Shown in pieces: positions 36,390 to 40,214 of a DNA stretch of 41,216 bases. The position numbers were made by a program, and so were the translations under genes. Source of the DNA: Flavobacteriaceae bacterium (GTDB lineage: Bacteria; Bacteroidota; Bacteroidia; Flavobacteriales; Flavobacteriaceae). The stretch lies in assembly GCA_030835845.1 (NCBI GenBank), contig JAUROD010000054.1, forward strand, positions 1 to 41,216, written 5' to 3'. How positions within the stretch are numbered: the first letter of the stretch is position 1; the number at the start of each line of letters is the position of its first letter. The notes under the pieces are model-generated. The model ran no database searches and had not been told where the DNA came from. It saw only the letters and a list, made by a program, of their open reading frames with translations.

Positions 36390-37691
36390 TTAAGCTACTT
36401 TACGTCTTTTTGTTGCTCGTTTGATTTGAGTTTGAATATCCCGTATAAAGCGGTGAAAATCGACAGTAATCCGGTGTCTTGCGGTATTGATTTGTTTCAT
36501 GTGGGGATGAGACACTTCTCGCTCACATAAAACTTTTATGTGTTCGGGTCGTTTCCATTCCCCTGTTAGTGCAAGTGCTGCCAATTTACTTTGTTGTTCT
36601 GAACCTGGCCAAATGCATCCAAGAGGCTGAAACATACCAATGAAAAATAAGTTTGCATATTCGGGATGAAACATTTTAAGATATAAAGGGACTGGACCTT
36701 CAGAATAATTTAAGAAGGTTGAATCGAAGAAAGGGTGAGCCAAAACAAAACCAGTACAGGCAATAACAACATCAAAATCTTCTTTTGAACCATCTATAAA
36801 GCAGACTGTCTTTCCTTCAAAATGAGAAATATCCCCTTTAGGTTTGACTTTTCCATGTCTAATTTTATAAAGTAATTCGCTATTCACAGTAGGATGGGTA
36901 GCACCAAATTTATGTACAGGGTTAGGGAGTCCATAGATACTGTTTGGACCATTGGTAATCCGAACCAAAAGGCCTGCTAAAAAATTACGGATTCCAATCG
37001 GGAGAAACGTCATACGAGAAGCAAACACATCGGAAGGTTTACCCATCAAAAACTTTGGGAGAATTCGATAGCCACGACGCCAACTGATTGATGTTTGTTT
37101 GCTCACTCTACTCGTTTCAACGGCTACATCACAAGCAGAATTCCCACCACCTATTACCAATACTTTCTTGTCTTGGAAAGGTGCTGCCTTTTTATATTGA
37201 TGAGAATGTAAATATGTTCCTGAAAATTCCCCCTTATACGTTGGATGCTTAGGTTGCCAATGGTGTCCATTACACACGACCAAATCGGTAAACAAGGCTG
37301 TTTTTTCTTCTCCATTACAAGATGTAGTTACTTCCCACTCCCCACTTGATTGCCTTACACAAGACCTAACCAATGTGTTAAATTCAATCCAACGATATAG
37401 ATCAAAATGTCGTGCATAAGCTTGAAAATAAGTCCGCAATTCGTCGTGTGATGGGTAATCCGAAACCTCAGGTGAAAAGGGAAAGTCAGCGTATTGAGAA
37501 AGTGTTTTTGAGCTTATAATATGTGTCGTTTCAAATACAGAGGAATGTGTTTGATTTTCATTGAATATCCAATTTCCTCCTACCTCATGGTTGTACTCAT
37601 ATGCAACTACATCCAGTCCTTTTTCACTAATATTTTTGATGGCTGTGATTCCCGATGGACCAGCACCAATGATACAAACTCGCTTTTTCAT
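36390..37691 (-). CDS. Flavin-containing monooxygenase
   Basis: This is a class B flavoprotein monooxygenase (FAD and NADPH, soft-nucleophile or ketone oxidation). From the ATG at 37691 (433 residues) the FAD motif is GAGPSG (9-14), the FMO identifying motif is FSGTYLHSHQY (156-166) and the NADPH motif is VIGGGNSA (179-186). The FMO motif ends in Tyr rather than the Trp of typical Baeyer-Villiger enzymes. In marine bacteria relatives oxidise methylated amines, but the trimethylamine group cannot be assigned here. A TTG two codons upstream is a less likely start. A hydrolase follows after 12 bases. Confidence 0.9.
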   Translation of the reverse strand: MKKRVCIIGAGPSGITAIKNISEKGLDVVAYEYNHEVGGNWIFNENQTHSSVFETTHIISSKTLSQYADFPFSPEVSDYPSHDELRTYFQAYARHFDLYRWIEFNTLVRSCVRQSSGEWEVTTSCNGEEKTALFTDLVVCNGHHWQPKHPTYKGEFSGTYLHSHQYKKAAPFQDKKVLVIGGGNSACDVAVETSRVSKQTSISWRRGYRILPKFLMGKPSDVFASRMTFLPIGIRNFLAGLLVRITNGPNSIYGLPNPVHKFGATHPTVNSELLYKIRHGKVKPKGDISHFEGKTVCFIDGSKEDFDVVIACTGFVLAHPFFDSTFLNYSEGPVPLYLKMFHPEYANLFFIGMFQPLGCIWPGSEQQSKLAALALTGEWKRPEHIKVLCEREVSHPHMKQINTARHRITVDFHRFIRDIQTQIKRATKRRKVA

Positions 37692-37805
37692 TTTCAATTA
37701 ACAATGTAAGAAAAAATGATGATTCTTTAAGAACTGTTTCTCTTTCGTTTAATTTTAACAAACCTCTTTTGTAAGTTCGACACCCCTTAATTGATAATAA
37801 ACTAC

Positions 37806-37830
37806 ATTAAACAAAACAAATTAAACAAAA
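37806..37830. repeat. Short direct repeat upstream of the flavin monooxygenase gene
   Basis: ATTAAACAAAA occurs twice (37806-37816 and 37820-37830) with a 14-base period. The surrounding 37692-37894 stretch is AT-rich and shows no other gene or clear promoter. It may be a low-complexity chance repeat. Confidence 0.4.
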
Positions 37831-37894
37831 ATAAAGTTCAATTTATACCCTAAACTTGATTTCATTTTTTATATAACTTCCCTATTATCAATAG

Positions 37895-38461
37895 ACTACA
37901 TCTCACTTTTCTTCTTGGAACACTTCAACCATAACAAATATGGAGAATGTGTTTAATGGTGCTACAGCTTTTAATGGAAATATCTCTACTTGGAATGTCT
38001 CAGGTGTAACAAGTGGTTTTGGCGAGGTGTTTAGTGGAGCTGCTGCATTTAATCAAGATCTCTCTTTATGGAATGTTTAAAATGCAACAAATATGCCTTC
38101 TATGTTTCTTAATGCCACAGTTTTTAATAGAAATATCTCTACTTGGGATACCTCAAGTCTAAAGTTCCTGTTTGGTGCGTTTAATGGTGCTTTAGCTTTC
38201 AACCAAGACCTTTCTTCTTGGAATGTTTCAAGTGCAGCATCTCTCCCTGATATGTTTCTAGGTGCTACAAATTTTAGTGCGGCAAACTATGACAAGCTAT
38301 TAGCTGCCTGGTCACAACAAAACTTACAAAGTAATGTTTCTTTTGGAGCACCCCCTACCTACTATTGTAATGTAACTGCAAGAAATGTTTTTGTAAATAC
38401 TTTTGGTTGGACCATTTCAGGAGACACAGGAGAAGGAACTGCTGAACAATGTACTCCTTAA
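37895..38461 (+). pseudogene. Remnant of a BspA-type leucine-rich-repeat surface protein
   Basis: The translation is a run of BspA/DUF285-type repeats, unit about FNGNISTWNVSGVTSGFGEVF, with blocks SSWNTSTITNM, AFNQDLSLWNV, NRNISTWDTSS and AFNQDLSSWNVSS. It ends with the typical capping region NYDKLLAAWSQQN and a Cys-containing tail (stop at 38461). The frame is open from 37895 except for TAA at 38078-38080, where other repeats have TCA (Ser). No start codon or signal peptide is present upstream, an in-frame TAG lies at 37892-37894, and the C-terminal sorting domain expected of such proteins is missing. It is a truncated, stopped relic of a larger surface protein. Confidence 0.82.
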
Positions 38462-38519
38462 TCTTTATTATTTGAAGAATATAAAACCATATAATCTAAA
38501 TAAAAAAAAACTGTTATGT

Positions 38520-40214
38520 TTAGTCACGAGTAAGTTTTTTGTACTGGATGCGTTTAGGAATTAGGTCACCTCCTAAGCGCTTCTTTTTATTTTCTTCATA
38601 ATCAGAAAAAGAACCTTCAAAGAAATAAACTTGAGAATCACCCTCAAAGGCAAGTATATGTGTGCAGATACGGTCTAAAAACCAACGGTCGTGAGAAATG
38701 ACAACTGCACAACCAGCAAAATTCTCAAGACCTTCTTCTAAAGCACGTAACGTATTGACATCAAGGTCATTGGTTGGTTCATCTAAAAGTAGTACATTAC
38801 CCTCTTCTTTAAGAGTCATTGCTAAATGCAAACGGTTTCTTTGTCCGCCAGAAAGGGTATTTACACTTTTATTTTGTTCGCTTCCACTAAAGTTAAAACG
38901 ACTTAAAAAAGCTCTCGAATTCACCTGTTTTCCGCCAAGCATGATTAGCTCTTGTTCGTCTGAAAAGTTTTGCCAAATTGATTTAGTTGGGGCAATATTC
39001 GCATGCGATTGGTCAACATATGCAAGTTTTACAGTATCTCCAACAGAGAACGTACCTCCATCTGGAGTTTCTTGTCCCATAATCATTTTAAAAATGGTCG
39101 ATTTACCTGCTCCATTTGGACCAATAACTCCAACAATACCGGCTTGAGGAAGTACAAAGTTAAGATCATCATAGAGTAGTTTATCTCCAAAAGCCTTGGA
39201 TACATTTTTAGCTTCAATGACATTGGTCCCCAAACGTGGTCCATTTGGAATAAATATTTCAAGCTGTTCTTGTACTTTCTGTTGGTCTTGGCTCATCAAT
39301 TTATCGTAGTTAGACAAACGTGCTTTTTGCTTTGTTTGTCTTCCTTTGGGAGCCATACGTACCCATTCCAATTCACGTTCTAATGTTTTTTGACGTTTGG
39401 AGGCTTGTTTTTGTTCTTGTGCCAAACGCTTTGATTTTTGTTCTAACCATGAAGAATAATTCCCTTTCCATGGAATTCCCTCTCCTCTGTCTAACTCAAG
39501 AATCCAACCAGCTACATTATCAAGAAAATACCTATCGTGAGTTACTGCAATTACAGTTCCTTTGTATTGTGCAAGGTGATGCTCAAGCCAATGCACAGAT
39601 TCAGCATCAAGGTGGTTGGTTGGTTCATCGAGTAAAAGGACATCAGGTTGTTGTAAAAGCAATCTGCATAATGCCACACGACGACGCTCTCCACCAGATA
39701 AAACACCCACTTTTTGATCGCTAGGAGGAGTTCGAAGTGCGTCCATAGCTATTTCCAGTTGAGTGTCTAATTCCCAGGCATTAGATGCGTCAATTTCGTC
39801 TTGAAGTTGCGCTTGACGATCCATAAGTTGTTGCATTTTATCTGCATTCTCATATACCTCTGGTAAACCAAATTGATCGTTGATTGAATTGTATTCGTCA
39901 AGGATTGCCACCGTTTTGGCTACTCCTTCTTTGACTACTTCTAGGACTGTTTTATTTTCGTCCATTTGAGGCTCTTGTCTCAAATATCCAACAGAATAGT
40001 CTTGAGAAAAAACGACATCTCCTTGGAAATTTTTATCTACCCCAGCAATAATTTTTAATAGGCTTGATTTACCTGAACCATTAAGACCAAGTATACCAAT
40101 TTTAGCCCCGTAGAAAAAACTAAGGTAAATATTTTTAAGAACAGGAACTTGAGCAGCAGGGTATGTTTTGGTTACCCCTGCCATTGAAAAAATAACTTTT
40201 TTATCGTCAGCCAT
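38520..40214 (-). CDS. ettA: Energy-dependent translational throttle protein EttA (ABC-F)
   Basis: EttA is a soluble ABC-F ATPase that binds the ribosomal E site and gates the first steps of elongation according to ATP level. The 564-residue protein has two ATPase domains: Walker A GLNGSGKS (43-50) with signature LSGGERRR (172-179) and DEPTN (196-200), then Walker A GPNGAGKS (365-372) with signature LSGGQRNR. An arm insert (about 85-145) and a charged P-site-tRNA-interaction linker (about 245-320) are both typical. A 59-residue membrane protein gene lies two bases upstream, so they share a transcript. Confidence 0.95.
   Translation of the reverse strand: MADDKKVIFSMAGVTKTYPAAQVPVLKNIYLSFFYGAKIGILGLNGSGKSSLLKIIAGVDKNFQGDVVFSQDYSVGYLRQEPQMDENKTVLEVVKEGVAKTVAILDEYNSINDQFGLPEVYENADKMQQLMDRQAQLQDEIDASNAWELDTQLEIAMDALRTPPSDQKVGVLSGGERRRVALCRLLLQQPDVLLLDEPTNHLDAESVHWLEHHLAQYKGTVIAVTHDRYFLDNVAGWILELDRGEGIPWKGNYSSWLEQKSKRLAQEQKQASKRQKTLERELEWVRMAPKGRQTKQKARLSNYDKLMSQDQQKVQEQLEIFIPNGPRLGTNVIEAKNVSKAFGDKLLYDDLNFVLPQAGIVGVIGPNGAGKSTIFKMIMGQETPDGGTFSVGDTVKLAYVDQSHANIAPTKSIWQNFSDEQELIMLGGKQVNSRAFLSRFNFSGSEQNKSVNTLSGGQRNRLHLAMTLKEEGNVLLLDEPTNDLDVNTLRALEEGLENFAGCAVVISHDRWFLDRICTHILAFEGDSQVYFFEGSFSDYEENKKKRLGGDLIPKRIQYKKLTRD

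Follow-up and report, generated by a model that had tools for sequence, protein, structure and literature searches.

A probable dead copy of a multi-copy DUF285 (PARCEL) surface lipoprotein family in a flavobacterial genome

Silent-cassette systems of antigenic variation contain many headless gene copies, and sequence blocks are exchanged between their loci. The repeats of BspA-family leucine-rich repeat surface proteins, a name that we use as NCBI does, are presumably those of LRR_5 (PF13306). A third group of repeat proteins is defined by the PARCEL motif, which generally corresponds to DUF285/TIGR02167 (Roske et al. 2010, PMC2996958). In that paper, untargeted PARCEL ORFs are described, their status as pseudogenes is left open by the authors, and an intragenomic mobilisation is proposed (PMC2996958). 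Among the matches listed in our literature searches, those for DUF285 and marine flavobacteria included PMC2996958 and a Vibrio phage paper, and none, judged by titles and the starts of abstracts, dealt with decayed DUF285 families in flavobacteria.

Here we analysed a repeat gene fragment in a DNA stretch of 41,216 nucleotides (the window), which corresponds to contig C44 in a fragmented MAG of the Flavobacteriaceae (1.56 Mb, 61 contigs, 83.8% complete). The original prediction had described it as a BspA-like surface gene inactivated by a probable TCA to TAA change and truncation. On the forward strand the frame at 37895-38461 encodes five 25-residue repeats and is open except for a single TAA at 38078-38080, so that the repeats are indeed conserved on both sides of one stop and the frame is clean elsewhere. 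When the stop codon was replaced by X, the frame scored 152.1 bits against PF03382 (DUF285; E 6.9e-45, cut-off 25) and 39.4 bits against the NCBIfam PARCEL repeat model TIGR02167 (cut-off 30), which places its DUF285/PARCEL identity far above chance. DUF285 was the sole domain reported by Pfam for the fragment. The term 'BspA-like' is therefore a loose one: LRR_5 was rejected as the repeat family, as PF13306 had no match in the genome while the same search was positive in 3 of 14 control genomes.

The codon that follows W-N/D-V/T is TCA in the four other repeats of the window, in contrast to the TAA at this place in the interrupted one. Across the window and its closest copies on contigs C11, C3 and C30, TCA was found in 12 of 16 repeats, the rest being TCT, TTT, GCA and TAA. 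Since TCA stands at the place of the stop in other repeats, one C-to-A change would explain it, as had been proposed; the codon after the TAA also deviates (AAT versus AGT in several repeats). A missing 5′ part was confirmed as well, with no signal peptide found ahead of the repeats and an in-frame TAG at 37892-37894, immediately 5′ of the repeat frame. Inactivation by a change of the TCA-to-TAA type together with loss of the 5′ part is thus supported. We rejected a functional short gene starting in the leader, as this TAG separates the leader from the repeats, and C11 has ATT in place of the ATG that comes first in the window and C3 copies. The predicted loss of a 3′ sorting domain was not borne out. 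Because the window frame terminates at a position matching the stop codons of C11, C3 and C30, we see no sign of a 3′ domain cut off; in relatives, the short DUF285 lipoproteins likewise stop a short way behind their repeats. Rfam (gathering scores) and tRNA scans of the window gave no matches. The features are collected in Table 1.

Table 1. Features of the DUF285 copy in the window and its neighbours.
Feature	Position	Strand	Remarks
Leader and start of first repeat, block common to C11	37801..37942	+	135/141 aligned bases; 69-base exact match over leader-repeat junction
Leader core CAATAGACTACATCTCACTTTTCTT, fused to repeat sequence	37889..37913	+	also in C11, C3 and C33 (up to junction); diverged in C55
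Headless DUF285/PARCEL repeat frame, five repeats, without signal peptide, one TAA	37895..38461	+	
In-frame TAA; TCA in the window's other four repeats	38078..38080	+	
C-terminal segment NYDKLL...QCTP and stop, common to C11, C3 and C30; the natural family end	38285..38461	+	
Remnant of family 3′ tail, without the hairpin and terminator part present in C3, C31, C12 and C55	38462..38488	+	
Left neighbour, flavin monooxygenase-like gene	36390..37697	-	no NCBIfam model above its cut-off
Right neighbour, ettA (ABC-F ATPase)	38520..40214	-	

In this genome, nine contigs carry 11 matches to PF03382; the open frames that hold them measure 80-212 aa, and stops lie inside three of the 11 (C44, C46 and C21); further in-frame stops were found in C51 and C33. 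Leader, head and tail pieces were located by DNA and protein searches. The N-terminal head, searched for in the translated flanks, is absent in all eight contigs with an assembled 5′ side; in C30, what appears to be the final part of a head remains, with neither start nor signal. This count leaves out C31, which a contig end cuts off on the 5′ side; C36 is incomplete on its 3′ side. Other pieces harbour other parts. In C33, a leader and a lipoprotein-like head (PF16403, PF18998), the latter interrupted by two in-frame stops, lead straight to the tail with no repeats between. C55 is a stub in which the leader is joined directly to the tail. C24 consists only of a C-terminal stub and tail behind the terminator of another gene. 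In C12, a C-terminal end with its tail abuts the end of the contig, so that any body would lie beyond the assembled sequence. At C51:10113-10286 (L011), a DUF285 piece is strongly decayed, is soon followed by a stop and ends near a terminator-like hairpin. A C-run/G-run palindrome stands behind the leader core in C55 (L142 2150-2330) and C33 (L141), and G-runs precede the repeats of C36 and C46. The outer contig ends of C12 (L094) and C3 (L004) beyond the tail are nearly alike (4 differences in 82 bases), and these two contigs may represent a single site as it occurs in two strains, with DUF285 ends that differ. Between the head of C33 (L141) and the contig-end pieces C34 (L110) and C42 (L107), stretches of 149 bases (98.7% identical) and 151 bases (94%) are common, which we take as a sign of recent exchange between heads.

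Taken together, the window fragment is probably a dead copy of a multi-copy DUF285 (PARCEL) surface lipoprotein family, internally deleted and reshuffled. A full gene of this family would comprise a leader, a lipoprotein head with Ig-like domains, the repeats, a short C-terminal segment and a tail with terminator; in this genome it is seen only as separate modules, in a fragmented MAG consensus with contig ends in the family. The proposed order is supported by the relative G012, where PF18998, PF16403 and DUF285 follow each other in one 650-aa frame with the same kinds of head domain as C33. The window copy would have lost its head and had its leader joined to a repeat at TTTCTT, perhaps by slipped-strand or other illegitimate recombination, and the stop codon would have arisen after the head loss or together with it; the copy is presumably no longer expressed. 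Other copies would have lost other modules. As leader, head, repeats and tail are each recognisable, the copies reveal which module was lost. For C11, C3 and C30, the frames of which are still open over about 160 codons, the word 'dead' refers to the missing head alone. About a dozen decayed and partly shuffled pieces in one genome make a vivid but fairly ordinary case of surface gene family decay.

The truncation originally proposed stands in that the head is absent, but it is not a simple one. The leader core runs directly into a repeat, and the identical fusion recurs at C11 and C3. Window and C11 agree in 96% of the columns over the fusion (Table 1) and in 69% (307/444) behind it, a contrast for which the block limits were chosen post hoc, so that the Fisher p of 1.4e-12 is descriptive only. 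For window and C3, 111 of 120 columns agree over the fusion and 316 of 398 behind it, with an exact match of 33 bases. Another headless junction is common to C36 and C46 (57 exact bases). From the high identity over the fusions and the lower identity behind them we infer that headless 5′ ends were copied between chromosomal sites. Such copying is needed as an extra step in the decay reading, because the same leader-repeat junction at three loci is unlike independent deletions; the 5′ ends would have been exchanged by ectopic recombination. C11 and C3 also have 48 exact bases in common at the start of the C-terminal segment, which indicates that exchange is not confined to the 5′ ends. The leader and the leader-tail unit had no match beyond the own genome in BLAST searches of 19 genomes, apart from 33 bases in G009. 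A leader common to the whole genus was thus rejected, the matches in G014 and G012 being repeats.

Candidate join sequences were sought at the fusion points. At the window junction, TTTCTT is a short stretch common to leader and repeat; elsewhere the candidates are ACCATAAATCA against ACCATAAACCA at C55 and AGATGGAACGAGT at C33, where the head side is a reconstruction. Heads would thus have been lost via short junction sequences of 6 to 13 bases, part of which may be chance, and the six bases common to both sides of the window junction could be a chance match. A more active process is conceivable, though we hold it to be doubtful: headless 5′ modules might spread alone, a promoter-side block ending in the first repeat being copied from site to site as a minute cassette that is not autonomous, or through gene conversion begun at the repeat, replacing heads and killing surface genes serially. 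The two types of leader-repeat fusion, one at three sites (C44, C11 and C3) and one at two (C36 and C46), with long exact matches within each group and largely old bodies behind, bear on this reading.

It is very unlikely that a chimeric consensus from assembly or strain mixture produced both the stop and the missing head. The MAG is split into 61 contigs with family members at the breaks, and a single site in two variants may underlie C3 and C12, as would fit such an artefact. However, the three sites that have this leader-repeat junction differ in their flanks (those of C11 being ftsK- and katG-like genes, as identified by eye), and stops were found in several copies (C44, C46, C21, C51 and C33).

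We then considered the age of the copies. Over the whole frame, the six pairs formed by the window, C11, C3 and C30 have pS values of 0.28 to 0.47 and Ka/Ks values of 0.45 to 0.65; over the C-terminal segment, pS is 0.24-0.35 and Ka/Ks 0.21-0.59. These values suggest that the repeat bodies are old and diverged under constraint as coding sequence, decay having probably come later. A recent loss, as first proposed, would accordingly apply to the 5′ block common to C11, which looks young, but not to the repeat bodies (pS about 0.3 to 0.5) in a family that is widely decayed.

The coding constraint kept in the bodies would also suit a recombination reserve, in which gene conversion carries variants of the repeats from silent headless copies into an intact, expressed gene outside the assembly. 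The many headless copies at scattered sites and the 48-base exact tract of C11 and C3, which shows that bodies exchange too, point the same way. Contigs end in or near the family members C3, C12, C24, C31 and C36 and at the head pieces C34 and C42, so that an intact copy may be missing from the assembly, and in the PARCEL paper such ORFs are suggested to be possible variant reservoirs (PMC2996958). However, the check for an intact paralogue that accompanied the reserve idea had a negative outcome, as no copy uniting leader, head, repeats and tail turned up in the 84%-complete assembly, the contigs of which break inside the family. In addition, the window, C11 and C3 have the leader and not the end of a head in common at their 5′ sides, so exchange through the leader would delete the head of the recipient. 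Away from the 48-base tract and the 5′ blocks, most body segments, compared over windows of 50 bases, gave 50-90% identity. The reserve thus found little positive support, and we regard it as improbable.

We also compared the site in related genomes: none of 15 relatives with an ettA match harbours DUF285 in the ettA stretches compared, in a search that recovered 9/9 control loci (two own copies and seven from relatives). In eight of the 15, mscS adjoins ettA, in seven of these between the monooxygenase and ettA; the monooxygenase directly adjoins ettA in two and is absent from the stretch examined in five. In G018, the 4.2 kb beyond ettA carry other genes. This is the outcome of the comparison of the locus in relatives that had been called for originally. 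The DUF285 site in the window is thus lineage-specific in this comparison. At the C30 site, between lepA and rmuC, DUF285 was likewise found in none of 14 relatives with rmuC, in the stretches examined. Here lepA is within reach in nine of the 14; the gap to rmuC is about 600 bases in eight of these nine, with a full frame of 183-188 aa in six and broken frames in two, and 80 bases in one. The G005 protein between lepA and rmuC scored just above the GNAT cut-off (21.4 versus 20.7 bits). The copies in the window and in C30 therefore sit where relatives have another gene or nothing. At window positions 37698-38519 and L001 1292-2227, the place of the DUF285 copy is taken in most linked relatives by an unrelated gene (mscS and a GNAT-like gene, respectively), as if the copy had replaced it. 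The loci closest to the left-neighbour monooxygenase (best 80 of 502) come from Flavobacteriaceae MAGs and single-cell genomes, apparently marine, including Candidatus Arcticimaribacter sp. PL36330bin_9. When contigs were scanned for the fragment family itself, 35 pattern matches resulted, of which none was confirmed.

A site without DUF285 in 15 relatives is also what an insertion would leave, and leader, repeats and tail could move as one mobile cassette. One 5′ junction at three sites and a second at two, the leader-tail unit without cargo in C55, and the link of PARCEL ORFs to mobile elements in some taxa (PMC2996958) fit this idea. Against it, reading the ORF lists by eye revealed no transposase or integrase near the window copy or near four further copies of the genome (L001, L002, L006 and L009). 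The ends are not constant, with leaders of at least three kinds and tails cut at differing places, and another gene occupies the site in most relatives, which leaves no clean empty site for comparison. We therefore consider such a cassette unlikely. A phage or plasmid origin was rejected: with 37790-38500 as the blastn query, plasmids gave no match and phages a single weak one, to a record that carries no annotation (67% over 30% of the query).

The distribution of DUF285 between relatives is patchy and dispersed, as in PARCEL: it was found in 17 of the 19 genus genomes, the own one included, with 1 to 40 matches each, and relatives lack it at both sites compared. In five relatives with long contigs, 132 DUF285 matches were counted; 16 of them fall in frames of ≤212 aa and three contain stops, matches within one gene not being independent of each other. 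Among 15 DUF285 stretches from relatives, picked mostly for short frames, seven hold eight unbroken genes with an apparent signal (by eye), one of these genes (L135) running off its contig end. L126 is a headed DUF285 gene broken into pieces, the longest frame of L137 starts inside the repeats, and the remaining six of the 15 have no frame with three evenly spaced repeats. This suggests that DUF285 genes decay in relatives too, alongside intact ones.

When compared to the systems named at the outset, the family in this genome has a loose annotation name and the character of surface repeat proteins in common with the BspA family, from which it differs by its DUF285 repeats in a genome without a PF13306 match. 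Many headless copies and blocks exchanged between loci recall silent-cassette systems. In contrast to these, no expression site was found in the 84%-complete assembly, which breaks at the family; most body segments are not near-identical, and several copies are broken by stops or deletions. The likeness to PARCEL goes further: 25-residue repeats that score for both PF03382 and TIGR02167 are dispersed in one genome, copies lack membrane-targeting signals, and there are signs of intragenomic shuffling. The family may differ from PARCEL in that no mobile gene was noticed by eye beside the own-genome copies read. A simple test, in which 16 repeat stretches were folded against mononucleotide shuffles, gave no general dyad symmetry (z between -1.1 and +1.1 for 14 and near -2 for two); it is a different test from the MEME palindromes of the PARCEL paper. 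If headless junctions were indeed copied between sites, this would be a hint of conversion as a way in which loss of function spreads within a gene family. Unlike the PARCEL ORFs described, the untargeted copies of this genome look like decayed genes, which bears on the question raised in the PARCEL paper, and leader and tail identify the modules that were lost, making this a readable example of the death of a PARCEL surface gene family in a flavobacterium.
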